In this document: positions 6,023-38,529 of the stretch, one piece after another
How the letters are laid out: every line of letters starts with the position of its first letter
Position numbering within the stretch: position 1 is the first letter of the stretch
Position numbers and translations under genes: made by a program
Origin: a virus
IMG/VR virus record: IMGVR_UViG_3300036985_003510
Span: 1-38,529 of that record
DNA length: 38,529 nucleotides
Strand: one strand, 5' to 3'
The notes under the pieces: generated by a model
What the model was told of the DNA's origin: nothing
The model's input: only the letters and a program-made list of their open reading frames with translations
Databases searched by the model: none

Positions 6023-6919
6023 TTAAGCACATATCTTGTTTCCCTTATTCATGTTCCCTATCTGCGTATCACCATGAGTTAAGGCAATGCCTGTTGTTGA
6101 CCATCGAGGCATTAGGTTATTCAATGACCATGCGTGCTTAATGAGTGTCATTGCATCTTCATGTTCATGTAGCGATAGAGGTACGATATGATCAATGTGC
6201 CATTCACTTCCATAGTTATCCCATGACATACCTGGTCTGAACTGTGATTCAAGATGTTGCTTGAGTGTATCGAATGTATAGCCTAAACACTTGATACTGA
6301 ACTTGCTCACGTATGGTCTACCATCACCCCGAAGATATGCGCTAAACCTTGTACTCACGTTCCTGGATATGCGCCCCCTGATACTCTTGCCCTTCTTGAC
6401 GTTGAGCGAACGCCACTGACAACGCATAGAGCAATACATTCTTTTGTTGCCGATTGGCATTTCTTTTCCACACACATGGCATGAGGTAATAATATTTGAC
6501 GGCTTTAACTGACTAATGATATGCACGGATTCAGCGTGAGATTGCTGTTTCCATTTACACATAAGAAAGTCTGGATTATCCCACTTTTTTTGCTTAGCGG
6601 TTTTCCTCCATGCCTTCCGAAGTTCTGATGCTCGCCCACTCTTATTAAATGACGTTCGTGCATTATATCGCACTATTAGGCGATGATCCTTAACACACCT
6701 TTTTTCTCCGCATGTCTTGGGCTCTTTTCCTCCTTTGATAAGCGTTCTGACGCTTACAGTTTTTCCACAATAAGGACACGTCATTTTAATGAACGGATTA
6801 ACAGGTGATCTTCCCCTCTTCCTTGCTCTCTGTGCGTTTTTCGAACATTGAAGCGAGCAATACAACTGCTGATCATTCTTCTCTTCAAACTCCGTGAGGC
6901 AGTATTTACACACTCTCAT
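6023..6919 (-). CDS. HNH homing endonuclease with several zinc knuckles
   Basis: 298 residues, preceded by GAAGGTG. The C-terminal HNH core reads WHIDHIVPLS (about 240-249) then SLNNLMPRW, the usual HNH arrangement with metal-binding histidines. The N-terminal half holds several Cys-x-x-Cys pairs (C4/C7, C21/C25, C48/C51, C147/C150) that look like small DNA-binding zinc ribbons. It starts inside the end of the glycosyltransferase gene. Free-standing HNH genes next to the terminase are common; some are selfish homing genes and some are needed for cos cleavage. Its A+T-richer sequence than its neighbours suggests a later arrival. Confidence 0.88.
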   Translation of the reverse strand: MRVCKYCLTEFEEKNDQQLYCSLQCSKNAQRARKRGRSPVNPFIKMTCPYCGKTVSVRTLIKGGKEPKTCGEKRCVKDHRLIVRYNARTSFNKSGRASELRKAWRKTAKQKKWDNPDFLMCKWKQQSHAESVHIISQLKPSNIITSCHVCGKEMPIGNKRMYCSMRCQWRSLNVKKGKSIRGRISRNVSTRFSAYLRGDGRPYVSKFSIKCLGYTFDTLKQHLESQFRPGMSWDNYGSEWHIDHIVPLSLHEHEDAMTLIKHAWSLNNLMPRWSTTGIALTHGDTQIGNMNKGNKICA

Positions 6920-8150
6920 ATTTCACCTTCTCCTCTTCTACATCATAACGTCCACTCATCTGTAGGCAATGCCCTATGCTCGCATATGTATCAACGCCTA
7001 TGCTTGCTCCTGCCTTGGCTGCATGATGACAGAAGCCGTAGTCCTCGCCATGATTGTCAATGTCAATGAACGGGCCACTAGACACTGCCTTGAGTACATC
7101 CTCAATCACCCATCTGCGTATGAGCGTGAAGGCAAGGCCGCATGTCTCTACTAGTATGGGCTTACCTGTCACATGATGCAGGCTGATGTCTGATGCTGTT
7201 GCGTTGATCATCCTGTCAAAACCCATGTCATATCGCACTAGAGCAATGGGGTTGTGTGGTGATCCTCCCGGTGATCCGTGCCTGCATACCGCAAGGCAGG
7301 AGAGCACGTCCATGTCAGTGTAGTGTGATCGCATCTTTTCCAGCGTGTCAGGCGGGAACACCATATCATCATCAATCATTAGGAGCGTGTTGCAATCTGT
7401 CTTGAGAAATTGTCCTGCCAGAAAGTTTGCTGCTGCTGCGTGTGGCATTGATTCGGCTGTCCTGATAATCGTGTCGCCTGTTCTGCGGCCTTGAGCAATC
7501 AAGCCTATCAGCGGCCATATGAATTGAACTGCTGGCTTCGATACCCTGATACCGATTGCGACTTTGCCCCATCCTATGCGTTCCTTCTGCCTCTTGATAT
7601 ATGTGCGCCGGTCTGCTGCCCACTTCTTTGCGTTGTATGCCCTGCGATAGTGCTTGTCAGATTTCAGGCCCTTGTGATTGTGGGTTATGACTTGCAGCGG
7701 TGTTATCGCAAAGCATCCTTGTTCCTTTGCGATGTCAACTAACTCAACATCAGAATAGCAGTGATGGTATGATTCAGAAAACACCTGCCCGTCCTTGAAT
7801 TGCCTGTAGAATGATCGGCTAATCATCCAATGAGTTGCAAAGGCTGTCCCGTACATTTGATCCTGTAGACCGATAAGCCCGCGCTTACCCTTCCTGAATT
7901 GCTCCATTGTGGCGAGTGCATCCGTGAAAATGTTTACATGGGGAATCACGTCATCGGCCAGGATCATCAGGTATTCGCCCTTTGCCATTCGCATGAGCCT
8001 GTTGCACATCATCGGGCCTGTGACGTGTTCGGGGTCAAGGTTGTGCTCACTGACAATCTCATAGGCGATGTCCCCGGCGTGCCGCTTCAGCAGTTTGATA
8101 CATCGCCTATATCCGACAGGGCGCAACCAGGGAATGATGACACTAATCAT
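6906..8150 (-). CDS. Tandem two-domain glycosyltransferase-like protein
   Basis: 414 residues with an AGGAGG site. Residues 1-190 look like a GT2-type (GT-A fold) domain: MISVIIPWLRP at the N-terminus, then LMILADD (62-67) as the nucleotide-sugar/metal motif. Residues about 195-400 start a second such unit, IGIRVSKPAV..., with LLMIDDD (257-262) as a second DxD-like motif. Two full GT-A units in one phage protein are unusual. Targets could be virion proteins, host surface glycans or modified DNA bases; nothing in the window decides this. It sits between a nuclease and the HNH gene in the leftward operon. Confidence 0.75.
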   Translation of the reverse strand: MISVIIPWLRPVGYRRCIKLLKRHAGDIAYEIVSEHNLDPEHVTGPMMCNRLMRMAKGEYLMILADDVIPHVNIFTDALATMEQFRKGKRGLIGLQDQMYGTAFATHWMISRSFYRQFKDGQVFSESYHHCYSDVELVDIAKEQGCFAITPLQVITHNHKGLKSDKHYRRAYNAKKWAADRRTYIKRQKERIGWGKVAIGIRVSKPAVQFIWPLIGLIAQGRRTGDTIIRTAESMPHAAAANFLAGQFLKTDCNTLLMIDDDMVFPPDTLEKMRSHYTDMDVLSCLAVCRHGSPGGSPHNPIALVRYDMGFDRMINATASDISLHHVTGKPILVETCGLAFTLIRRWVIEDVLKAVSSGPFIDIDNHGEDYGFCHHAAKAGASIGVDTYASIGHCLQMSGRYDVEEEKVKYESV

Positions 8151-11767: not shown

Positions 11768-12613
11768 ATGAGTGAAGAACTACAGGTAGTCAACAGCGGC
11801 AGCATGAGTCTCAAGCAAATCGGGGATAGGGTCAACCTTGTCCACCAGGTACTTGAAAAGGTGCTCAAGAAAGGTACGCACTACGGAACATTGCCGGGGT
11901 GCGGAAACAAGATGGTGCTCCTCAAGCCGGGGGCCGACGTGCTTGCAATGACATTCAGACTCGCGCCGCAGTTCAAGATCGAACGGAGCGACATGGAGAA
12001 CGGTCACAGGGAATATGATGTTACCTGTTCCATGTACGGGTCTGACGGCTCGCTTCTCGGTCAGGGTGTAGGGAGTGCATCCACGATGGAGAAGAAGTAC
12101 CGTTACAGGAAGAACGAAAGCGGGGCAAAGATCGAAAATGAGGACATTGCCGACTGCTACAACACGGTTCTCAAAATGGCAAAGAAGCGGGCGCATGTTG
12201 ACGCCACCTTGACAGTCACAGGTGCCGGGGATCTCTTCACCCAGGACTTGATCGAGGATGAGGACGAACAACCTAAGCCCCCCGTCACCATGCCCACACC
12301 GAAGGCCGCGCCGGGAGCGTTTGTCCCCGAAGGCATGCCGGAGCATGATACGCGGTTGCCACTGTCCACGCCGGCAGACGGGAACATGGGCGACGTGACC
12401 GGGATGCTACAGGAAGTCAATGTCAAGGAAGGCACTGCGAAGAACGGGAAGCCGTGGACACGGTACGGCCTGATAGTGGATGGCGAGACGTACGGCACGT
12501 TTGACAAGAATCTCTACAATGGTGCCCTTGAACTGGTCAACCAGAAGGTGTGGCTTGAGGTGGAGACCAAGGGCAAGTTCAAGACGGTGATGAATCTGGG
12601 ACTCCAGAGATAG
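11768..12613 (+). CDS. Putative annealing/ssDNA-binding protein with C-terminal OB fold
   Basis: 281 residues with an AAAGGAA site. Residues 1-160 belong to a recurring phage family: GTHYGTLPG, then KPGADVLAMTFRL, TMEKKYRYR and VLKMAKKRAHVDA motifs. The KKYRYR and MAKKRA segments resemble Rad52/Erf-type annealing proteins in style, but I cannot prove homology. Residues about 205-281, after a Pro-rich linker, read as an OB-fold ssDNA-binding domain (GDVTGMLQEV ... WLEVETKG). With the exonuclease two genes upstream this looks like an exonuclease plus annealing system. Confidence 0.65.
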   Translation: MSEELQVVNSGSMSLKQIGDRVNLVHQVLEKVLKKGTHYGTLPGCGNKMVLLKPGADVLAMTFRLAPQFKIERSDMENGHREYDVTCSMYGSDGSLLGQGVGSASTMEKKYRYRKNESGAKIENEDIADCYNTVLKMAKKRAHVDATLTVTGAGDLFTQDLIEDEDEQPKPPVTMPTPKAAPGAFVPEGMPEHDTRLPLSTPADGNMGDVTGMLQEVNVKEGTAKNGKPWTRYGLIVDGETYGTFDKNLYNGALELVNQKVWLEVETKGKFKTVMNLGLQR

Positions 12614-12619
12614 CAAACG

Positions 12620-12683
12620 CCCCCAGCCGGTCCTTACCCTCTAAATGTGCTACCACACAACGAGCAGTCGGGACCGGCGGGGG
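12620..12683 (+). other. Intergenic long hairpin in the replication operon
   Basis: CCCCC-A-GCCGGTCC (12620-12633) pairs with GGACCGGC-GGGGG (12671-12683), thirteen pairs with one bulged A. The loop of 37 bases holds a smaller TGTG-CTAC-CACA hairpin. No T-run follows, so it is not a standard terminator. It ends about 11 bases before the start of the 12695 gene and may control that gene's translation or RNA processing between the two cistrons. Confidence 0.7.
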
Positions 12684-12694
12684 ATGGAGGGTGT

Positions 12695-12895
12695 ATGATC
12701 GTAATTCAAGATGATGTCTGGCGGGCTGAATGTATCGCAGGAATGGGATGGGATAGCGACTGCACGGTACAGGTCTACCCGATTGACTGTGCTGATTATG
12801 TGACGTATGAATACCCAAATCGAAACACTGCAATAAAACAATACAAGATCATTTTAGACGCGTGGCAACAAGAAATTGTGCGAATTGCGAGGTAA
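12695..12895 (+). CDS. Small protein, 66 residues
   Basis: ATG at 12695 after GGAGGGTGT; longer in-frame readings run through the intergenic hairpin and are rejected. It is mixed alpha/beta with an N-terminal strand (IVIQDD) and a C-terminal helix (residues 46-63). No motif is recognisable. It directly follows the hairpin at 12620-12683, which probably sets its expression. Confidence 0.6.
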   Translation: MIVIQDDVWRAECIAGMGWDSDCTVQVYPIDCADYVTYEYPNRNTAIKQYKIILDAWQQEIVRIAR

Positions 12896-12898
12896 GCC

Positions 12899-13258
12899 AT
12901 GAATGACGAATCCTGGCTAGTCGGGTTACTGAACAAGCGGCCCCTCGACTCAATCCGCGTGCTGCTGGATCTTGTCGGGGCAGGGCTGGCACGTGGCGAG
13001 TGCAGCGCGAATGACGTTGCATCGTATGTCAGCGAACCGAACACCATAGGCTGTGCATTCCGCGTCCTCAAGCGGTACGGGTTTGTCCAGTCAGATCGCC
13101 GCATCAAGCCTGTGGACAAGTGCAAGCATGGCCGCCCCTTGTACGTGTGGACCCTTGTAGACCGGGGGCAGGCCGAGGTGTTCTTGTCGGCCTTGCGCCG
13201 TGTGCTGGTGGTTAGGGAGCCGTCTGAGGGCGGCAGTCAGTTGTTGATGAGGATGTAG
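12899..13258 (+). CDS. Winged-helix DNA-binding-like protein
   Basis: 119 residues. The region 8-95 reads as a winged helix: DSIRVLLDLVGAGLARGE, SANDVASYVSEP, TIGCAFRVLKRYGFV as the three helices, then a basic wing (KHGRPLYVWTLVDRG). Likely a small regulator or a replication accessory that contacts DNA. The stop TAG is followed immediately by an ATG in the next reading frame used by the helicase ORF. Confidence 0.6.
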   Translation: MNDESWLVGLLNKRPLDSIRVLLDLVGAGLARGECSANDVASYVSEPNTIGCAFRVLKRYGFVQSDRRIKPVDKCKHGRPLYVWTLVDRGQAEVFLSALRRVLVVREPSEGGSQLLMRM

Positions 13259-24118: not shown

Positions 24119-24367
24119 TTAGTGTTTTTCGTTATCGAACGCTTCCAGCGTTTCAAACTTGTTGCTGATTGAATTGAGCATCTGGTTAGTTGTGTACCCC
24201 TGCAATCCTGCATTGACGCGGAGTTTGTTTATCTCATCCAAAGTGACAAGGGAGATTGCCGAGATGCCGCGAGGCGAGAAAAAACCGGAAGCCACCTCTG
24301 ATATTTTCGCGGCCATACACGCGCACACAATCACGCCAAGCACAAAGCCTATGACAAGTTTTTTCAT
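24119..24367 (-). CDS. Small secreted or membrane-anchored protein, 82 residues
   Basis: ATG overlaps the previous stop (ATGA). A Lys-Lys start and hydrophobic residues 4-22 (LVIGFVLGVIVCACMAA) form a signal peptide or a membrane anchor. The remainder is helical (LDEINKLRVNAG). Cys in the hydrophobic stretch could suggest a lipoprotein, but no clean lipobox is present. Confidence 0.65.
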   Translation of the reverse strand: MKKLVIGFVLGVIVCACMAAKISEVASGFFSPRGISAISLVTLDEINKLRVNAGLQGYTTNQMLNSISNKFETLEAFDNEKH

Positions 24368-25611
24368 GGAGCCACCCACCATCCTTTGACTTTGATTCGC
24401 GCACCATCCATCCCCGATCCAATGTAATATCCAATGATGCCGTTGGTTGACGGGTAACAGCCGGACGCGCTGAATACCGATTGCCCCGATACCAGGATGT
24501 CCTGCTCCCCGCGCACCTGCGACGGGCTGGAAGTGTTTGTCGGCAGGACGCTCATGGAGTTGCCTACGGTGTTGTCATAGGACTGCACAAACAAATCCAC
24601 CATCCTGCACTTGCTGGGAACTCCGACGCCATTTGAGGACGTGTCAAGCGGTAGCCATGCCCCCGTCAACAGCCCGTTGGTCAATTCAAAATCGTAGGCA
24701 AACCCGTTATTGATTGTGCGCTGAACGTAGTAGTAAGCGTTTGTTTTTGTCCAGTCTATGACGCTGTTCGTTGCCGCGATTACGCTATCCACCCCGGCGA
24801 GGCCGTTGGTTGAGGTTGAGCCTACAGCGGGCGTCTGGTAGAAGATGGACGGTGTGCGGATGCTCGTGGACTTGCCGCCGCCACCATAGGTTGTGATGCT
24901 GCCGCTTGCACCGCCCGTGCGCTTGCCGTACCACAACACCGCAAGATAGGAGTTGGTTTTTACCAGATAATTCGTACTCGTGTGTGCCCGCGAGTCGTAT
25001 TCTGTCTCCGTTGTTGCGTCGGTAATGTCTTTAAGCGATGTCGTGTCAATGATGTTGGTGATGCTGCCGTTGGTCGAGATTGCCGCCAGTTTCCAGAATG
25101 CCTCAATGACGGGATTACCGAGGCCAGTAACTTTGACATGGTAGTGCCCCAGGTACTCGCCAGCGGGAACAAACATATCAGACTCACTCGCTGCCGTGTT
25201 GAGCATTTGTGTTGCGATGAAGCAGCCGAGATAATTTGTGCCAGCCGCAAGCGCCATGTTGGTGCTCCATGCCGCACCCTCTATCGAGTCAAGACTGCCG
25301 CAACCCGTCAACACCGGATGCGAGTTAGTTGTTCCGTAGAGTATCTGTGCGGAGTATTGTTGGAGCCGGAAGTCGAGGCGGTCAGAGGTCACGTACTCGG
25401 TAGGCCCATAGATGTTGTTCGTGTCGCCGCGATACCAGCGATAGGGGGTGTTTGTGGCCCATCCATACGCAAACCAGTTAGAGTCATTCGGATTATACAT
25501 TACCGGCTGATTCGTGTACTGGGCCTGCGCAGGTAACGCGAGCAGGATAGCAACAAGCACCGCACCGATGATTGCCGCGATACGGAAGCCCTGGATCAGT
25601 TGTCGTCTCAT
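24364..25611 (-). CDS. Secreted fibre-like protein, 415 residues
   Basis: Start at 25611 chosen from the GGAGG upstream; the longer reading is rejected. The N-terminus is a Sec signal peptide: basic MRRQ, hydrophobic residues about 13-28, then an ALPAQA cleavage site. The mature part is Thr/Asn/Ser-rich and beta-rich with many Tyr and Trp (NWFAYGWATNTPYRWYRG), like tail fibres or surface adhesins. It lies among tail genes, so a virion role is expected, yet a signal peptide on such a protein is odd. Confidence 0.7.
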   Translation of the reverse strand: MRRQLIQGFRIAAIIGAVLVAILLALPAQAQYTNQPVMYNPNDSNWFAYGWATNTPYRWYRGDTNNIYGPTEYVTSDRLDFRLQQYSAQILYGTTNSHPVLTGCGSLDSIEGAAWSTNMALAAGTNYLGCFIATQMLNTAASESDMFVPAGEYLGHYHVKVTGLGNPVIEAFWKLAAISTNGSITNIIDTTSLKDITDATTETEYDSRAHTSTNYLVKTNSYLAVLWYGKRTGGASGSITTYGGGGKSTSIRTPSIFYQTPAVGSTSTNGLAGVDSVIAATNSVIDWTKTNAYYYVQRTINNGFAYDFELTNGLLTGAWLPLDTSSNGVGVPSKCRMVDLFVQSYDNTVGNSMSVLPTNTSSPSQVRGEQDILVSGQSVFSASGCYPSTNGIIGYYIGSGMDGARIKVKGWWVAP

Positions 25612-25754
25612 CGTATCGCCTCCAGTGTCTGCCTGTACGGGCATCCTGTAGCCTCGCGCCGTGACTCGCAGTAAAGGATTGTGTAAACGAACATGAAAGC
25701 CGCTGCCAGCATGAGCGTGAGGAAGATGGCTTGTGTTGTTTGGTCTTGGGTCAT
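25608..25754 (-). CDS. Small membrane protein, 48 residues
   Basis: Overlaps both neighbours through ATGA junctions. Residues 9-28 form one transmembrane helix (AIFLTLMLAAAFMFVYTILY) followed by a charged tail with two Cys. A holin or membrane anchor is possible; nothing more can be said. Confidence 0.6.
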   Translation of the reverse strand: MTQDQTTQAIFLTLMLAAAFMFVYTILYCESRREATGCPYRQTLEAIR

Positions 25755-26695
25755 GGGTAGGCTCCTGCGGGGAGGCGGTTGCGCTTGTTAAGTGATGGAT
25801 GATTCGTGCTACCGCCCGCAATAGGGAATTGCAGTTTCTGGCAGCCGACATAGTAACTCAAGTTCGTGACTTCGAGGGCGGTTAGGTTGGTATTCATAAT
25901 ACTGACAAATGCTACACTGCCAGTCTCTAACTGCCCAAACGTACCGCCAACACCAACTCTAGCAGTAGTATTTGACGATCCGATATACGTGCCCAATACA
26001 GACACCGTAAATGGTGCAACTATACCATTGGTGTATGCTGTTATGTTTGTGGCTAAATTATTGACTAGGCTACCCGTCCACAGTACGAACGTCCAATCTC
26101 GCTGCGGAATAGTAGCAGATACCGTCATGGTTCTACTTTGAGCCGTATTCCCCTGCGCGTTTAACTGTAGTTTCGGCTGCCCCGAACTGATAGATGTTCC
26201 CCATTCGCGTGATCCTGCTGACCCCCACTTACTGCACACCGCCATATTGACGCCTATATAATATGGATTAACCCACGCGCAAATGGTAAACGGTACATCA
26301 TTTGAAATGTACGGAACCTTTGCAAATGTATGGTTATTGTTATCGTTTATCAGGAAATAATCATCGTCACCATCGAGACTCCATCCATATATCGCATCAC
26401 CCAATTCGTTAGTTCCAACGCACACATACAATGGGGCAGATTGATTACTTACAACGCAATGAGTTGGGGTTGCGGAAGTGTTGCCATTATCCAACATGCT
26501 TCCTGCGCTCCCATACTGTGGTGTTACAGAAGTGTTGGTTCCATAATCGGCTAGGAATACATAATTGGAAATGGGGTCTGTCCAGCCCTGACTCACAACA
26601 CTCCCCACGGCAACAGGCTTGTACTGCTGCATCCAGTTCCACGCCCCGCACGTCAGCACGCCGAGGGCAAGTAGGGTTATGGCGAGTTTTCTCAT
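25751..26695 (-). CDS. Secreted protein with LamG/concanavalin-like domain
   Basis: 314 residues from the ATG overlapping the previous stop at 26692. Signal-like N-terminus (MRKLAITLLALGVLTCGA). The region about 80-270 has the pattern of LamG/ConA-like jelly-roll lectins: SLDGDDDYFLI, FTICAWVNPYY, RDWTFVLWTG, AYTNG and a final FGQLETGSVAFVSIMNTNLTALEV. Such domains bind glycans and occur in phage fibres and cell-surface proteins. Probably a receptor-binding or fibre component; the signal peptide leaves open that it is exported by the host cell. Confidence 0.75.
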   Translation of the reverse strand: MRKLAITLLALGVLTCGAWNWMQQYKPVAVGSVVSQGWTDPISNYVFLADYGTNTSVTPQYGSAGSMLDNGNTSATPTHCVVSNQSAPLYVCVGTNELGDAIYGWSLDGDDDYFLINDNNNHTFAKVPYISNDVPFTICAWVNPYYIGVNMAVCSKWGSAGSREWGTSISSGQPKLQLNAQGNTAQSRTMTVSATIPQRDWTFVLWTGSLVNNLATNITAYTNGIVAPFTVSVLGTYIGSSNTTARVGVGGTFGQLETGSVAFVSIMNTNLTALEVTNLSYYVGCQKLQFPIAGGSTNHPSLNKRNRLPAGAYP

Positions 26696-27930
26696 TGTAA
26701 AACGTCCACGGAAAATACCACCTCTTGAGTTGAGCCGCCGGGGAAGGCGAGGCCGATCATGCTGTTGACGGGCACCGCCCACGAGAAATTGGACTGCGAG
26801 GATGCGCCTATGCAGGGCATGGTGCCCAACAGCGTCAGGTTGCCCCATCCGTTTGTCCAGTATTTGTAGTACACGTTCGCGGTCATGCCACCGCTGTACG
26901 CCTGTGCCGTGATGCGGGTGATTGTGCTGGCTGCTGTCACCATTGGCCCCCAGTTGGTTGTGGGCAGGGCGTATGTCCAGCACATTGTATTTGTCTGCGG
27001 TGCCGCCGCAATGCTGTTGTCAATGATTGTCTGGATGTTGGTGCCGTCAAGGGTAAGCCCGGTGCCAGATGCAAGATCAAGGCTGTCATCATCCCATGAC
27101 CATACCTGCATGGATGATGGCCCGTAGCCAGCCCTGCCGTCCCAATCGAGGCTGACGCTCGCATCAGTACACCACAACCGCCCATTTGCAAAGTCAATGC
27201 GCTGGCCTGTTGTAACAGTACCGACCGCCGCTATATTGGTGATGTTTCCCCCCTGCATGTCCAATGCTGGGAGTGCCGCGCTGTTTGTCCATGATTTTGG
27301 TAGTGCATTACCAGCGAGTGTACCCTGTGCCGCGGTTGCAAAGTCTGCCGTTCTGTTGGTTGAGGCGGTGCCGAGTCCGTTGGTAAGTGATCCAGCCGCC
27401 GTCAATACAGCATTACTGGTCAACCCGATCACCGCGCCCACCTTGGTCAGCAGGCCACCGGACACGCTCACGCCCGCGCCCCGTAGATCGAGGATACCTG
27501 AGGCCGATATGCCGCCGCTGTTCTTGACCGTGAGAGTGCCGCGCCCCCATTCGATTGTTTGCGTTGTGTTGGTCATCACCACGCCGCCGTAGAACGTGCC
27601 GTTGCTCCCGAACGTGTTGCTTGTGCACTGGAAGTCAATGTACGAATTAAGGGAAGTGAACACCCCGACAACACTTACCTTGCTTGTTGCATCCCAATCC
27701 GAGTTTGTGCCGTACCATAATTCGCCCGACCAGTCGGAAGAAGGAAACCACGCCTCACCGTTCTGCAACAGGTCAACACGGATCAATGGAGTTGCCCCGG
27801 CAAACGCGGTCAGTGTCCATGTTGCCGCTGGCTTCTGGCTGTCAACCGACCACTCTACTTGCGGAACAGCCGCCCTCGCATTACCCGCCGCGAAGATCAA
27901 ACACACAACCATCATTATTTTCAATTTCAT
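26692..27930 (-). CDS. Secreted tail-fibre-like protein with BppU/Ig-like N-terminus
   Basis: 412 residues with a GAGGAA site. A Sec signal peptide (residues 1-20, ending GNARAA) is followed by a beta domain (about 22-155) that is clearly related to the whole mature part of the neighbouring 27944 gene (WSGELWYGTNSDW versus WSGILWFGTNANW; YGGVVMTNTTQTIEWGRG versus YGGIVMTNGTRLIEWGQG). The rest is Thr/Asn/Gly-rich fibre with repeated short strands and a C-terminal beta domain. The N-domain resembles baseplate upper-protein style domains. Likely a receptor-binding fibre. Confidence 0.7.
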   Translation of the reverse strand: MKLKIMMVVCLIFAAGNARAAVPQVEWSVDSQKPAATWTLTAFAGATPLIRVDLLQNGEAWFPSSDWSGELWYGTNSDWDATSKVSVVGVFTSLNSYIDFQCTSNTFGSNGTFYGGVVMTNTTQTIEWGRGTLTVKNSGGISASGILDLRGAGVSVSGGLLTKVGAVIGLTSNAVLTAAGSLTNGLGTASTNRTADFATAAQGTLAGNALPKSWTNSAALPALDMQGGNITNIAAVGTVTTGQRIDFANGRLWCTDASVSLDWDGRAGYGPSSMQVWSWDDDSLDLASGTGLTLDGTNIQTIIDNSIAAAPQTNTMCWTYALPTTNWGPMVTAASTITRITAQAYSGGMTANVYYKYWTNGWGNLTLLGTMPCIGASSQSNFSWAVPVNSMIGLAFPGGSTQEVVFSVDVLQ

Positions 27931-27943
27931 ACGTTCCTCACTT

Positions 27944-28384
27944 TCAAAGAGTCAATACACACGTCGCAGTCACGCCCCCACTTGGTTGCACGGTTATAAC
28001 GCCCTGCCCCCACTCGATCAAGCGTGTGCCATTGGTCATCACGATGCCGCCGTACAGGGTTGCCGAGTTCGTGAAAGCGTTTGTACCGCATTGGAACGTC
28101 GCGTATGAATTGGTTGCGCTGAATACCCCGGTGACTGTTCCGCTTGTCGGGGCTTTCCAGTTTGCATTTGTGCCAAACCATAGAATACCAGACCACGATG
28201 AATCAGGAGTCCACGCGCTCCCCGCCTCAAGAAGATTGACGCGGAGTTTCGGGGCCGTCTTGACGTAGGCCGTCCATGTCCACTTGACGCCGGGATTCTG
28301 CACGTCGAGGGACACGGAGTACACGGGAGTTTCGGCCCGCGCATAGGTCACGCACAACAGCAAGACTATGAAAGCGTACTTCAT
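27944..28384 (-). CDS. Secreted single-domain paralogue of the fibre N-domain
   Basis: 146 residues: signal peptide (1-17, ending TYARA) plus one beta domain homologous to residues 22-155 of the 26692 protein. It lacks the fibre part, so it could cap or compete in the same assembly site, or be a truncated duplicate. ATG overlaps the previous stop (ATGA). Confidence 0.7.
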   Translation of the reverse strand: MKYAFIVLLLCVTYARAETPVYSVSLDVQNPGVKWTWTAYVKTAPKLRVNLLEAGSAWTPDSSWSGILWFGTNANWKAPTSGTVTGVFSATNSYATFQCGTNAFTNSATLYGGIVMTNGTRLIEWGQGVITVQPSGGVTATCVLTL

Positions 28385-28545
28385 TTCTTTGGTTCCGGCC
28401 GGACAATGAGTGTCTGCCTACATCCTTGATCGAGAGCCGCCACGAGTTGACTAAGCATCTGAGCCAGTTTCGCGGCTTGACTCACAGGGATGCTCACCGT
28501 AACTGTCGGCTCCTGCTGCGGTGCTGGCTGTTCTTGTTTCTTCAT
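28381..28545 (-). CDS. Small helical protein, 54 residues
   Basis: Preceded by AAAGGAG and ending in an ATGA overlap. Pro/Gln-rich start, a TVTVSIPVS strand, then a helix (QAAKLAQMLSQLVAALDQG). It may be a fibre assembly chaperone by position between two fibre genes. Unrecognised. Confidence 0.65.
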   Translation of the reverse strand: MKKQEQPAPQQEPTVTVSIPVSQAAKLAQMLSQLVAALDQGCRQTLIVRPEPKK

Positions 28546-28556
28546 GTGTCTCCTTT

Positions 28557-30134
28557 TCATGACTTTACCAGAATGGACACGGGGCCCGCAAGTGGTACTC
28601 CGTTGTTATCGTACAGGTACACGCCGGCCAGAAGGGAAAAGCCAGTGCCCGTGAATATCCCGCCGCTGAATGCTGACCCTACCGAATTGCCCGGAGTTCC
28701 ACCATGATAGTATGAACCCGTACCAACAACATTGATTCCATTTCCTGCCGTCACATTAATACCATAGTTAGCGTCACACATATCAACCGTCTGTGTTGCT
28801 GCAACGAGCCTTTGAAATCTGGCTGACAACGCTGCGGTAGTGTCCCCAAATGTGAAACTGTTAGTTGGAGAGATACAACCAGAGGTGTTGCCGAAGAATG
28901 CACCGCCTAGAACTTGAAATGCTCCTGTCGGAGTGCTGCCATTCCATACGGTTGTATCCTCGACGCGCACCTTTTTTACAAAACTTGCTCCTCCAACAAC
29001 AACAAGGCTTCCCAGCCCAAGGGCTGTATATGCTCCGATGTCAGTTGCATTGGAAATTTTCACCGTCCCAGCCGCTAGGAAATCCGTGAGTGCTGCCGCG
29101 TCAAAATCAACAAGAGCCGTCCCCGCGCCGTTACAGAGTTGGGAGTTATCGAGGTCAATGGCCTTGCTGTAATCGGCCCTTCCGATGCTGACAAATGCCG
29201 CCGCGCCGTAATGGGTTGTTGCATCGCCTGTGTATGTGCCGCCTATCTCGGAATACTGCTTAGAGTGTTGTCTGTTTGCCGTGCCAGTGTAAACCGTGGA
29301 AGCACTGGTCAGAAAATCAAGGTTCGCGTGTACGGTAGCCCCCGCAGCATTCCACGGGCCATTAGTGCCATTCCAGCCGCCGCCGCCACTCGCCGCTGCC
29401 GTGGTAAGACCCGTGGCCAGTTCAGTGATCGGGATGTATTTCCCCGCGCCCTTTGCCGTTGGCCGCGTAAACATCCCATCGCCGCTTGCCCACACTCCAT
29501 TGGCTAAGGTGTCCCATTGGAACGCTTGCGCCCTGTTCTTCGTTGTTCCTACCGTGGCGATGTAGTCGAGTGACACTCCATCAAGTACAGTCGGCTTGTC
29601 TGTGATGTCGCCGCCGTTCCAGAGTTGCTCCACTGCGGTTATCACGCCCGAGGTCACGGTGACTTTCCCAAATACCACTATCGGGCTTGTCGTGTACCTG
29701 CTTGGATAGGTCGCGCTCCAGGATGCCGTGAGTGTTGTGGGTTGCGTGCTGCCGGGGTTTGCCCCGCCCGTCAAGGTGCCAATGATGTAGCCGGATGCTG
29801 CGATACTGCCCACGATTGCGAAGTACTCGCCGTCGAAGCGGGGCGTGCCACCAGTACCGGGGCACAGCAAGCCGACATCGTACTCCGAGGTGCCTACGCA
29901 GACTGTCCAGATACCGGCACGGACACGGACTGAATCGCTGCTTAATTGCTCACATTCAAAATGATATGCAGGTGCAAGGTAAGGATTATCAATCCCTGAT
30001 ACCGAAAACCCGTCAGGCCATTGCGTCAAGCGTGTTCCGTGCCCCTGTTGCGGATATGTGCGAGAGGCAACGTCTATCAGTTTGTTGATAGGCCTGCTTC
30101 TAAATCCCTTAATTTTTGGAGGAATATCAAGCAC
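28557..30134 (-). CDS. Large tail-fibre or tail-tip protein
   Basis: About 525 residues from GTG at 30134, chosen because GGAGG lies just upstream; the frame is open further but overlaps the previous gene. Beta-rich, with Gly/Ala/Thr/Ser-rich repeats (SGGGGWNGTNGPWNAAG, VVVGGASFVKK, NYGINVTAGNGINV) that resemble beta-helical fibres. No signal peptide. It follows the 30146 tail gene, so it is likely part of the tail tip or side fibre. Confidence 0.65.
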   Translation of the reverse strand: MLDIPPKIKGFRSRPINKLIDVASRTYPQQGHGTRLTQWPDGFSVSGIDNPYLAPAYHFECEQLSSDSVRVRAGIWTVCVGTSEYDVGLLCPGTGGTPRFDGEYFAIVGSIAASGYIIGTLTGGANPGSTQPTTLTASWSATYPSRYTTSPIVVFGKVTVTSGVITAVEQLWNGGDITDKPTVLDGVSLDYIATVGTTKNRAQAFQWDTLANGVWASGDGMFTRPTAKGAGKYIPITELATGLTTAAASGGGGWNGTNGPWNAAGATVHANLDFLTSASTVYTGTANRQHSKQYSEIGGTYTGDATTHYGAAAFVSIGRADYSKAIDLDNSQLCNGAGTALVDFDAAALTDFLAAGTVKISNATDIGAYTALGLGSLVVVGGASFVKKVRVEDTTVWNGSTPTGAFQVLGGAFFGNTSGCISPTNSFTFGDTTAALSARFQRLVAATQTVDMCDANYGINVTAGNGINVVGTGSYYHGGTPGNSVGSAFSGGIFTGTGFSLLAGVYLYDNNGVPLAGPVSILVKS

Positions 30135-30145
30135 TCTTGCCTCCA

Positions 30146-31009
30146 CTAAACTACAGCCTGACCACCCTCGTAAAGCCTCTTCTGCCAACCACCTGTATTA
30201 CCTCGTCCGCCATCATATCCTACTGTTCCCCACCATTCATTGACGATCTGTACCCATTTTGTGCTGACGTTTCTAACTTGTGGCGGCATCTTTAGCCACT
30301 GCGTGACAGGTTCTACTGTTGCTGCATTGCCATCCCAAAACGTTACGAATGGCTGTGACCATTTTACTCGCTGGAAATCTGTGTGAGGGAAATCTTCAAT
30401 CCCTGGCCTGTTAGTTGCGCCGTCTCCATTGGTCGTGTAGTCAAACACATAAAATATATTTTCCATCGACGCTTTAACATCATCAGCCCGCGCTGTTGTC
30501 ATGGTGCGGCGTATCACCCAGTAATAGGCCAGATAACCATTGACCCCCATATTACGCAGCCTAACATATGTCTGGATATATAGTCCTGCGCCCTCCGAAA
30601 ACGTTGCAATTGCTGTCATGCCAGTCCCACGCCTTACGGCAACCTCAGCAGACTCTAGTTCTGTATCGCTTCCACTAGAGCCGTTGAATGCAGGATGTGT
30701 TCTTAAATCTTTATCAAGGCGCACGCCGTCAAGTTCCCATATAGCACTTTCCTTTGCATTCTCTTCTTCGTCGCCTTCATCCGGTGCGGAGGCTGTCGTG
30801 CTGAATGTTGCACTGATAACAGCATAAACCCCTTTTTCGACGTGGATGGTGTCAGGATCAAGAGTATCGGCAATAGTCTGTGCATAGGCGTCAGCCTTGT
30901 CTTGCGGCCCGTGCCAGGTGCGGGTAATGATCCAGCCCTCATCAGGTTTCCAGTCGCGCTGTTCCGGCTGCTCCGTGAAGGCGTCAACGCCTATGATTTG
31001 TTCAGGCAT
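30146..31009 (-). CDS. Tail protein of unknown class
   Basis: 287 residues, largely beta, without signal peptide. Segments such as VYAVISATFSTT and GMTAIATFSEGAGLYIQTYVRL suggest stacked beta strands as in distal tail or baseplate proteins. Its place between the tape-measure region and the fibre genes fits a distal tail protein (Dit-like) or hub, but I see no diagnostic motif. Confidence 0.55.
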   Translation of the reverse strand: MPEQIIGVDAFTEQPEQRDWKPDEGWIITRTWHGPQDKADAYAQTIADTLDPDTIHVEKGVYAVISATFSTTASAPDEGDEEENAKESAIWELDGVRLDKDLRTHPAFNGSSGSDTELESAEVAVRRGTGMTAIATFSEGAGLYIQTYVRLRNMGVNGYLAYYWVIRRTMTTARADDVKASMENIFYVFDYTTNGDGATNRPGIEDFPHTDFQRVKWSQPFVTFWDGNAATVEPVTQWLKMPPQVRNVSTKWVQIVNEWWGTVGYDGGRGNTGGWQKRLYEGGQAVV

Positions 31010-31016
31010 ACATCAC

Positions 31017-31445
31017 CTAGTTTTCGAGAACGGTAAATACGAAGTCTCCGGTAGCAACACACTTTATTGCCATGCTTGTAACTGCGTAAGTGGTTGTCAG
31101 TCGAAACATCTGATACTCTTCCGAGTTCAATGTGAGGTTCGTAGTTGTGCCACAATCGAAACTAATGAATATGGTTTTGTTCGTCGTGGCATTTTCAAGG
31201 AAGCACAGACCATGACCCGACACCGCGCCTTCACCGAGTGACTGCCAAGCATTTGTTGCGCTATACATGACGCTATAGAACCGCGTGCCCGTCCAGTCCA
31301 CCTGCAACGTGGCGGGACTGCGGTTGATCGTAGATCCGTTCTTGGTCGCCTTCAAATGAGCGTTCATCGTGATCTCATCGCCAGCGATACAAACAGCCGT
31401 TACGATCACGCCAATCAACATCCCTACAAGAAAAACCCTTTTCAT
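31017..31445 (-). CDS. Secreted small beta protein in the tail operon
   Basis: 142 residues. Signal peptide (MKRVFLVGMLIGVIVTAVCIAG, about 1-22) then a compact beta domain with NGSTINRSPATLQVDW and YAVTSMAIKCVA segments and a Cys pair (about 93 and 108) that could form a disulfide in the periplasm. It follows the tape measure directly, where a tail-tip protein is usually found. Exported function cannot be told. Confidence 0.65.
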   Translation of the reverse strand: MKRVFLVGMLIGVIVTAVCIAGDEITMNAHLKATKNGSTINRSPATLQVDWTGTRFYSVMYSATNAWQSLGEGAVSGHGLCFLENATTNKTIFISFDCGTTTNLTLNSEEYQMFRLTTTYAVTSMAIKCVATGDFVFTVLEN

Positions 31446-35286: not shown

Positions 35287-36192
35287 TTAGGCCGTCACGA
35301 GACGAACCACGCTGTTCTGTACCTTCTTGACTCCGTACAGCAACAGGACTTCACCGGACAGCTTGCCGCCGCCATCGTAGAAGGTCTTGTAGAGTACCGA
35401 CAGGCCGCTCTCCGGCTCCGTTATGACGCGCTGGTCAACCAAGTTGCCCTCACCAACATCAGCAAGAGGCTCCGGAGGGGTCATCGCAATGGCTATTGCA
35501 TCACGCCCAAATACCGCACCAGCGAGATTCTCGCTGTTCGACGGCATCGCACCATAACTGATGGTATCCATGCCAATCAGTTTCGGCAGGACCGCGCTGG
35601 ACATGAAGTTCTGTCCGGCTGTCGCGAAGATCAGGCCCAGATTGCTCTCGCCCATGATTGCGGCAGAATATGCCGTGTTGAGGAGCAGTGTGCGTTTCCG
35701 TTCCTTGATCTTGGTCTCAGCATACTGCCACAGCAGCGCAAGTTTCTGCTGGTCGAAGTCGGCAACCGCACAGGTCAACTTGTCTGTGCCGTCGGTATTG
35801 CCGTAGTTGGCCCCGGTCACGAGCGCGAGGGCCGTGTCAACAACCTGTTTCGCCAGCGAGTAGGTAGCACCAGCGGCCTTGTCTGCCCAGTAGTTGGCCA
35901 GGAGCTGGCCGGCTATCTTGCCTTCCATAGCATCCCAGCCCGCGCCTTCGAACAGGTCCATCGTGACCTGCGTTCCGGCAACGGTTCCGGTTCCTGTCAA
36001 CGCTGTCCCTGCGGTTTTCGTGGCCACAGTCGGGTCAGTCGAAACAGGGACGTACACGGAGTTATCCTGCACAGCATCACCGACCGCAACGCGAAAACTA
36101 AACGCATTGAGGGCCGGGAGCATGTACTTGAGTGCTGAAATTACGCGACTGTCTACCAGCGCGCTGTTGATCGAACTTATTGTGCTTGCCAT
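35287..36192 (-). CDS. Major capsid protein (HK97-fold)
   Basis: 301 residues with an AAGGAG site. It follows protease and scaffold and lies before head-completion genes, and has the segments of coat proteins of this size: N-arm (1-45), a P-domain helix (DQQKLALLWQYAETKIKERK, about 149-168) and a C-terminal A-domain (GVKKVQNSVVRLV end). No long N-terminal delta domain is present because scaffold is separate. It should be the most abundant virion protein. Confidence 0.85.
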   Translation of the reverse strand: MASTISSINSALVDSRVISALKYMLPALNAFSFRVAVGDAVQDNSVYVPVSTDPTVATKTAGTALTGTGTVAGTQVTMDLFEGAGWDAMEGKIAGQLLANYWADKAAGATYSLAKQVVDTALALVTGANYGNTDGTDKLTCAVADFDQQKLALLWQYAETKIKERKRTLLLNTAYSAAIMGESNLGLIFATAGQNFMSSAVLPKLIGMDTISYGAMPSNSENLAGAVFGRDAIAIAMTPPEPLADVGEGNLVDQRVITEPESGLSVLYKTFYDGGGKLSGEVLLLYGVKKVQNSVVRLVTA

Positions 36193-36204: not shown

Positions 36205-36660
36205 TTATTTGATTCCGAGCACATCAGCGTGCTTGGTTCTGAACTCTTCACGTGCCTTCGCGCCCTGGACCTTATCGTATGCCGCCAGTGCTTCGGCCTT
36301 TGATGCAAACGTAGCGACATCCGCGCCAGCGGCTGCGCCTTCCTCAACTGCCTTCTTGCTTCCCGTCGCTGCGGCTGCGGCAAACGCCGGATTAGCAAGA
36401 GCCTTCTGCGCCTTCTCAAGTTCCGACTTGGTTGCCGCGTGCGCCTTCTGTTCCACGTCCATAGCACTTACCGCCTTGGCAACTGCTTCCGCATTCGCCT
36501 TCACCATGGACTCAGCCTGAGCCTTGAACTCATCGCGCTCTTTCGTGACCGCGAGGAAGGCTTCACCATTGGCCTTCATTGCGGCTTCTGCCTCAACCTT
36601 AGCCTTCTCCGCAAGTTCGGCCCGCGCCTTTGCTTCGATCAGTTCTTCTGCGATTGTCAT
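36205..36660 (-). CDS. Scaffold protein
   Basis: 151 residues, GGAGGACATA before the ATG. Highly charged Ala/Glu/Lys coiled coil (about 5-90), an Ala-rich hinge (about 92-115) and a short basic C-terminus that could bind the capsid. It lies between protease and capsid as in many phages and is likely digested by the S49 protease during maturation. Confidence 0.8.
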   Translation of the reverse strand: MTIAEELIEAKARAELAEKAKVEAEAAMKANGEAFLAVTKERDEFKAQAESMVKANAEAVAKAVSAMDVEQKAHAATKSELEKAQKALANPAFAAAAATGSKKAVEEGAAAGADVATFASKAEALAAYDKVQGAKAREEFRTKHADVLGIK

Positions 36661-36669
36661 TATGTCCTC

Positions 36670-37164
36670 CTACGGATTGTCGGTTGTGAAAATGCGGATC
36701 ACGTTTGTGCAGGTGTTGATGATTCCGACACCGTACAACTTGATCTTGAGGTTGCTGCCCACAAGAGCCTTCTCGTACTTGGCCTCAAGCACAGTAGTAG
36801 CAACGATGTTGGTTGATGCCAGTGTCGAGGATGCAGTTGCCCCGGCAATGTCAGTCCCCGCTGTGGTCGTGCCTATGAATCGCGGCCTGTAGACCTTCAC
36901 GGCAGTCGGCTGCGTGATCTGGTTTGTCACGTAAATGTCAGTGACCGTGGTTCCGCTCCACGTCCCAAGCATTACCATGTTAGTTGACAGGGCATCGCCC
37001 CCCGTCAGAACCACTTCCACCTTGTCCAAGTAGCCGCTTATCGGCAACTGGTCAGAGTATTCGCTTTCGCCGTTCGTGACTACCATCGTGGTTGTGTAAA
37101 CGTCGGCACTCGCCACGCCTATCACAAGCCCCATCGCCATGAGTCCGATCAATACTTTCTTCAT
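36670..37164 (-). CDS. Secreted paralogue 2 at the head decoration locus
   Basis: 164 residues with AGGAG upstream. A clear Sec signal peptide (MKKVLIGLMAMGLVIGVASA, 1-20) then a beta domain (YTTTMVVTNGE, YLDKVEVVLTGG, DIYVTNQIT, VIRIFTTDNP). It is about half identical to the 37184 neighbour, and 27 bases (36850-36876) are exactly shared with 37367-37393. Lambda has its decoration protein nearby. A decoration protein that carries a signal peptide would be very unusual. Confidence 0.75.
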   Translation of the reverse strand: MKKVLIGLMAMGLVIGVASADVYTTTMVVTNGESEYSDQLPISGYLDKVEVVLTGGDALSTNMVMLGTWSGTTVTDIYVTNQITQPTAVKVYRPRFIGTTTAGTDIAGATASSTLASTNIVATTVLEAKYEKALVGSNLKIKLYGVGIINTCTNVIRIFTTDNP

Positions 37165-37183
37165 GTCTTTCTCCTTCTCTCTG

Positions 37184-37672
37184 TTACCTGTCCTTGACCG
37201 TGAAGATCCTCACGGTGTTTGTTAGTGTTACGCCGCTGGCTACATTCCCGCCCCAGTACTTCAACTTGAAGTTACTTCCGACAGGGAGTCTTTCATAAAC
37301 ACCCTTAAGCAATGTGGTCGTGCATTCATTTGTTGACGTGCTTGCCGATGCTGTAACCGCTGCGAGGTCAGTCCCCGCTGTGGTCGTGCCTATCACGCGA
37401 GGGCGCACGATCTTTCTGACCGCCGTAACGTTGTTCGTCACGTAGATGTCAACTGCGGTTGTGCCGCTGAATGTAGCCAGCATGATACCGCCTGTAGACG
37501 TGGCCGCGCTCTGGGCAATTTCCACCTTATCCAGATATCCCGCCACGGGTATCGGGTCGGAGTATGCTGCCGTCTGGTTGTTTGTGATTGTTACCGTGAG
37601 CGTGTAAACATCAGCACGGGCCATACCTGCGGCCAGCGCGAGCATACACCCTATCGCCACCATTTTCTTCAT
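37184..37672 (-). CDS. Secreted paralogue 1 at the head decoration locus
   Basis: 162 residues with GAGGAGATAGG upstream. Signal peptide MKKMVAIGCMLALAAGMARA (1-20), then a beta domain (YTLTVTITNNQ, YLDKVEIAQS, DIYVTNNVT, TVRIFTVKD) matching paralogue 2. Placed directly after the S49 protease and before paralogue 2 and scaffold. Possible roles are head decoration, periplasmic superinfection blocking, or surface exposure on the host. The tandem and the shared 27-base block suggest recent duplication or conversion. Confidence 0.75.
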   Translation of the reverse strand: MKKMVAIGCMLALAAGMARADVYTLTVTITNNQTAAYSDPIPVAGYLDKVEIAQSAATSTGGIMLATFSGTTAVDIYVTNNVTAVRKIVRPRVIGTTTAGTDLAAVTASASTSTNECTTTLLKGVYERLPVGSNFKLKYWGGNVASGVTLTNTVRIFTVKDR

Positions 37673-37675
37673 AAC

Positions 37676-38512
37676 CTATCTCCTCTTTTTGCTTTTACCT
37701 AATCCCGCCGCGATTTCTAACGCGGTGTTGTAACTAGTAATTTCGTCTATCAATCCGTTCTCCTTCGCTTCGACTGCGCCGAAAGACTGCCCCTGCATTA
37801 CATCGTCCGAGATGTTGCGCCCCCGCCCCGCCCGCACCGCTGCCTTGAAGTCTGCGCCCATCTTGTTGATTCGCGCCTGCAACATGTCTTCCTGTTCCCG
37901 CGTCAATTCTGTCCCCGGCAATCCCATGCCCTTATGCTTGCCTGACTTAAACAGGTTGAGTTTTACGCCCTCCATTGCCATTTGCCGGGAGCGGTCGAGA
38001 ATCGCCATGTATGCCCCGATTGATCCGATGTCAGCGGAGGTCATCGCGTAGATCAGGTCACATTGACTGGCCATCCAGTAGGCCGCTGAACCGATAAGGC
38101 CATCACCATAGGCCACGGTATACTTCTTCTGCCCGGCTGACTTGATCGCGGCGGCTACTTCCGGTGTTCCCATTGCCATGCCGCCAGGGGAATCGAAGAC
38201 CAACATCAGGGAATCAACCTCGTCGTCATCGCCCGCCGCCCGCACCATGCGCTCTAGAATGTCGCTGGAGGTCACGCCGCTATCGTAGAGCATGTCTGAA
38301 AACTTGCGCCCAATAACGCCCTGAACCGGGATTATCGCCGTATTCCCTTGGAGGGTGAATTGCCGCTTGCCGGGATTGGCGGGCATAGACTTGGCAAGGG
38401 CGTGCTGCGCTTCCTCGCGTGCCCCGCCCTCCGCGTGCGCTTCCACGATGTCAGTCAACACCTTGTGGACATCGGCAGGCAACAGCCACGGCTCACAGCA
38501 TAGCGCGGTCAT
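37676..38512 (-). CDS. S49-family head maturation protease (gpC-like)
   Basis: About 278 residues from ATG at 38512; a TTG at 38524 is an alternative without a better ribosome site. The SppA/S49 fold shows SPGG (about 108-111), the catalytic Ser in GSAAYWMAS (about 142), and the Lys in LFKSGKHK (about 189-194) as the general base of the Ser-Lys dyad. It processes scaffold and portal during head maturation. Unlike lambda gpC, no scaffold is fused at the C-terminus. The gene start repeats at 1-127. Confidence 0.9.
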   Translation of the reverse strand: MTALCCEPWLLPADVHKVLTDIVEAHAEGGAREEAQHALAKSMPANPGKRQFTLQGNTAIIPVQGVIGRKFSDMLYDSGVTSSDILERMVRAAGDDDEVDSLMLVFDSPGGMAMGTPEVAAAIKSAGQKKYTVAYGDGLIGSAAYWMASQCDLIYAMTSADIGSIGAYMAILDRSRQMAMEGVKLNLFKSGKHKGMGLPGTELTREQEDMLQARINKMGADFKAAVRAGRGRNISDDVMQGQSFGAVEAKENGLIDEITSYNTALEIAAGLGKSKKRR

Positions 38513-38529
38513 GCACCTGATCAATCTGG
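38403..38529. repeat. Terminal direct repeat, right copy (circular contig overlap)
   Basis: Exact copy of bases 1-127. Joining the two makes a circle of about 38,402 bp and connects the portal gene (minus strand, ending at 130) directly to the S49 protease gene (starting at 38512), which is the lambda B-C order. The biological continuity of gene order across the join supports circularity rather than a chance repeat. Confidence 0.95.

Follow-up and report, generated by a model that had tools for sequence, protein, structure and literature searches.

The window analysed here spans 38,529 bases and is the whole of an IMG/VR virus record. It carries a 127-base direct repeat at its ends (1–127 and 38403–38529), by which the genome is probably complete. 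Its late genes lie on the minus strand and, in order of transcription, encode a portal, an S49-type head protease, two signal-peptide proteins (protein 2, then protein 1), a scaffold-like protein and the major capsid protein, followed by head-tail genes, the tape measure, and tail and fibre-like genes. The protease (37676–38524, minus) matches Peptidase_S49 (E = 4e-25) and phrog_53, head maturation protease (E = 3e-60). It flanks protein 2 (37184–37672, minus; 162 aa), which is followed by its tandem paralogue, protein 1 (36670–37164, minus; 164 aa). On the far side protein 1 is flanked by a coiled-coil protein (36205–36660, minus) with homologues in the related contigs L207 and L208; from its position and composition, rather than from a family match, we infer that it is the scaffold. 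The major capsid protein (35287–36192, minus) was assigned by position and homology and is 47–54% identical to those of the same two contigs. The scaffold gene sits between the signal-peptide genes and the capsid gene, and the pair lies within the head gene cluster. Protease, protein 2, protein 1 and scaffold genes are separated by only about 3, 19 and 9 bases, and no promoter-like site above chance was found in this region. The original observation of two tandem signal-peptide proteins between protease and scaffold holds, and its size of about 163 residues is corrected to 162 and 164.

Predicted Sec signal peptides occupy 37613–37672 in protein 2 (MKKMVAIGCMLALAAGMARA, then DVYT) and 37105–37164 in protein 1 (MKKVLIGLMAMGLVIGVASA, then DVYT), both on the minus strand. 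In each case the predicted cut falls after Ala20 and before D, leaving mature parts of 142 and 144 aa, respectively. Judged by a rule-based scorer, both proteins have the features expected for Sec and signal peptidase I: a charged n-region, a hydrophobic core of 12–14 residues (mean Kyte-Doolittle 2.45 and 2.67) and A-x-A before the cut, with no transmembrane or other hydrophobic anchor segment found further along either protein. The scorer is our own and not SignalP; seven classical E. coli signal peptides served as a check on it. For the Verrucomicrobia phage P8625 it agrees with the SignalP run of that phage's authors, who found a signal peptide in 0 of 52 proteins (PMC4642752). Both N-termini score in the range of OmpA, DsbA and PelB, and only 0.5% and 0.07% of composition-preserving shuffles reach their scores. 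Both ORFs begin with ATG behind a Shine-Dalgarno-like site (5 and 6 matched bases), and no strong internal start downstream of the signal, from which a cytoplasmic form could be made, was found in either. It is thus well supported at the sequence level that both proteins carry classical Sec/SPase I signal peptides, the textbook type first proposed for them, and they are predicted to be exported.

The two proteins are 53–54% identical. Away from a shared block of 27 bases, synonymous positions have mostly diverged, and of 78 conserved residues just 30 share a codon, so the duplication is old, and the recent duplication that had been read from the block is rejected. The block itself is real: 37367–37393 (minus), coding for IGTTTAGTD, is identical to 36850–36876 (minus), and nine consecutive identical codons are not expected by chance (permutation P = 0.0006). 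The L207 homologue uses other synonymous codons at this place, so that constraint on the nucleotides is a poorer explanation than a short gene-conversion tract that arose in the lineage of the window. The sequences therefore suggest local gene conversion, the other explanation offered originally. Since the window copies are nearer to each other than either is to the L207 or L208 protein, the duplication postdates the split from these phages.

A profile of the paralogue pair matched a contig (L207) of a Candidatus Hydrogenedentes MAG (G016) at E = 2e-23. This contig is syntenic with the window (portal 50%, protease 51% and capsid 48% identical) and has one homologue of the signal-peptide proteins, located in the same slot between protease and scaffold. 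An IMG/VR contig found by the portal profile (L208; portal 51%, protease 55%, capsid 54%) shows the same arrangement, again with a single homologue. Mature parts across the homologues are 37–58% identical. The four signal regions have diverged to 26–58% identity, and all four keep the charged start, the hydrophobic core, A at –1, D at +1 and either A or V at –3. We favour export because the signal is conserved in both paralogues and in the two homologues despite this divergence. Among more distant relatives, a phage that shares its source metagenome with L208 (L209, found by portal alignment) carries in this slot a signal-peptide protein without detectable similarity to the window pair. No such protein was found in L003 and G114, and in L003 and L212 the protease is followed directly by the scaffold.

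Conservation of this kind bears on the idea that the pair are decoration proteins that stay in the cytoplasm, with the signal-like N-terminus as a hydrophobic arm that is either retained or cut off by the head protease as the head is assembled. Gene position and a cement-like fold (see below) would suit such an arm, and known cement proteins do hold the capsid by extended N-terminal arms (PMC9698820). We nevertheless consider it improbable: a charged n-region, an uncharged core and small residues before the cut are maintained while the sequence around them changes, and the unrelated protein in the equivalent L209 slot has a signal peptide too.

No family in PHROG or Pfam matched the signal-peptide proteins significantly. 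Viral scans with a single protein, with the paralogue alignment and with the capsid protein returned no relatives, nor did a phage collection. Sampled genomes of Verrucomicrobiota (387) and Planctomycetota (392) yielded no homologue, and in 68 Hydrogenedentota genomes only the phage copy in L207 was found. The assignment of L207 to its MAG could be a binning error. One Verrucomicrobiota genome (G884) gave a weak match (E = 8e-4; L217 1743–2165, minus) on a short contig, to a signal-peptide protein that has phage-like genes as neighbours; given the number of genomes searched this value is not significant, and we did not accept the protein as a family member. These searches also weigh on the view that the pair are host-derived secreted genes that entered the late region by chance, as morons, and have no role in the particle. 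Single morons with signal peptides do occur in other phages, for example between terminase and portal in L068. We hold this origin to be very improbable here, as a homologue is kept in one slot across three diverged genomes and the bacterial genomes searched yielded no copy beyond the phage one.

The slot itself resembles that of decoration genes. In phage ZRG1 an annotated head decoration gene lies between the S49 protease and the capsid gene, the place of the lambda gpD type, and the assignment of the locus to head decoration is supported. The likeness to gpD ends with position, as gpD has a tulip fold (PMC9698820) and the window proteins have a signal peptide. The best fold matches are to the cement proteins of KHP30/KHP40, Pam1 and GP4, described as trimers of Ig-like type at three-fold and quasi-three-fold sites (PMC9698820). 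An AlphaFold2 model of the mature part, built on three sequences, is all-beta but weak, with a pLDDT of about 66 (66.5) and residues 73–105 unreliable. Its first-ranked Foldseek match in the PDB is the KHP40 cement protein (7dou, E = 0.002), and VIA gave Z scores of 9.3 for KHP30, 8.9 for KHP40, 8.7 for Pam1 and 7.4 for GP4, in a range (7–9) where Ig and jelly-roll matches are common. In sequence the proteins resemble no known cement protein, and a profile comparison with that of KHP30 gave no match either; the agreement in fold is therefore a lead and not a proof. Like these cement proteins and those of BPP-1 and epsilon15, the window proteins are encoded at a head-gene locus, are comparable in size (about 125–155 aa) and are predicted to be all-beta, with cement as the best structural match; unlike them, they come as two tandem copies ahead of the scaffold gene and with signal peptides. 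The KHP30 gene that we took as cement (126 aa, the length of the solved chain, adjoining the capsid gene) has no signal peptide according to our scorer, and the GP4 cement protein was traced from Ala2 (PMC9698820). From slot, gene packing and predicted fold, we ascribe a cement-like identity to the signal-peptide proteins with moderate confidence.

On the usual view, tailed phages assemble and decorate their heads inside the cytoplasm, and the proteins of the virion normally have no signal peptides. What looks unexpected, then, is an export signal on a cement-like protein amid capsid-building genes, in the window phage and in at least two relatives. In the open-licence literature we came across no account of decoration proteins with signal peptides. 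If the prediction is true, either the particle is completed in part after lysis, or the phage has turned a head-type protein to use in the envelope.

Our preferred reading, held tentatively and at somewhat less than even confidence, is that the pair are lineage-specific proteins of cement type, encoded in the head operon, which are exported, cleaved and probably meet capsids only at lysis. Ig-like or jelly-roll paralogues would be made alongside protease, scaffold and capsid protein, pass through Sec and be cut after Ala20 by signal peptidase I. Mature proteins of 14–15 kDa would then build up outside the cytoplasm, and finished capsids or released particles would most likely acquire them when the cell lyses. 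Position, co-directional packing, and the signal and its conservation are seen directly; the all-beta fold is predicted, and cleavage, location and attachment to the capsid are what we infer from these. Cement is favoured by the same protease-scaffold slot in three genomes together with the fold match. Against this reading is the fact that export parts the protein from head assembly.

The main rival reading is of proteins acting in the envelope, which would cover or obstruct the receptor at a late stage of infection and so exclude superinfecting phage or spare released progeny from binding to debris, with the head operon giving late timing only. Small lipoproteins that block the receptor or exclude superinfection, such as T5 Llp and phi80/N15 Cor, are encoded outside the head operon. 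The window pair are likewise small phage-encoded proteins predicted to use Sec, and their clean signal peptides, the lack of a cytoplasmic form and the tandem divergent copies, which suit exclusion or receptor interaction, all fit. Several further adhesin-like products of late genes in the window, one of them with a LamG domain, also have signal-peptide-like N-termini. However, the pair have neither a transmembrane anchor nor the lipobox cysteine with which signals of the Llp/Cor type end (all four homologues have A before the cut and D after it), their top fold matches are cement proteins, and in three genomes they keep the slot between protease and scaffold and are packed as head genes are, where a moron would have a promoter of its own. 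We regard an envelope role as rather unlikely and rank it behind late decoration. Of the two fates named at the outset, late decoration is thus favoured by position, packing and cement fold over superinfection exclusion, and neither is proven.

An unusual host cell plan had also been suggested as the source of the signal peptides. This is weakened by P8625, the one cultured verrucophage of related architecture, which is without signal peptides. P8625 resembles the window phage in its terminase, portal and capsid proteins, which are distant relatives, in gene order and in a LamG-type tail-region protein; it differs in that the slot is empty, and its LamG-annotated protein has no signal peptide by our scorer. 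A feature general to phages of Verrucomicrobia or the PVC group was accordingly rejected as a complete explanation, L003 and L212 also being without a slot gene.

Signal-peptide-like starts, unusual for tail genes, also occur in about six more late ORFs of the window (24119–31445, minus). These comprise an ORF with the tape measure gene on one side and the next tail gene on the other (31017–31445); a fibre-like ORF (26692–27930) and a paralogue of its N-terminal domain (27944–28384), 48% identical over the common domain; a LamG (concanavalin-like) protein (25751–26695; PF13385, E = 7e-9), if its start is at 26695; the ORF at 24364–25611; and a small ORF with a hydrophobic N-terminus (24119–24367), the weakest of the set. 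Above the scoring threshold are 7 of 57 ORFs in the window, versus 15 of 1149 in related phage loci, found mostly via terminase (Fisher exact test, P = 4e-5). In the head and tail regions of six phages, annotated or called, the scorer picks out 3 of 148 CDS, and no core virion gene is among them. Relatives of the mature part of the 31017 ORF and of the L209 protein were absent from the phage collection, and fibre-domain searches in Hydrogenedentota gave no match. One may ask whether this lineage exports its particle-surface proteins, of cement and fibre type, through Sec and finishes the virion outside the cytoplasm at lysis; we find so general a scheme doubtful.

Several minor observations concern other genes. 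The window shares a helicase region (58%) with Synechococcus phage S-H1, whose annotated head module looks different. A glycosyltransferase-like protein (window 6906–8150) recurs in L207 (3074–3739) and L208 (6897–7562), where its gene lies among the head-tail genes. The L068 protein (12274–13038; G007), from another phage, is 254 aa long, begins with a clean signal peptide and is possibly an outer-membrane barrel.
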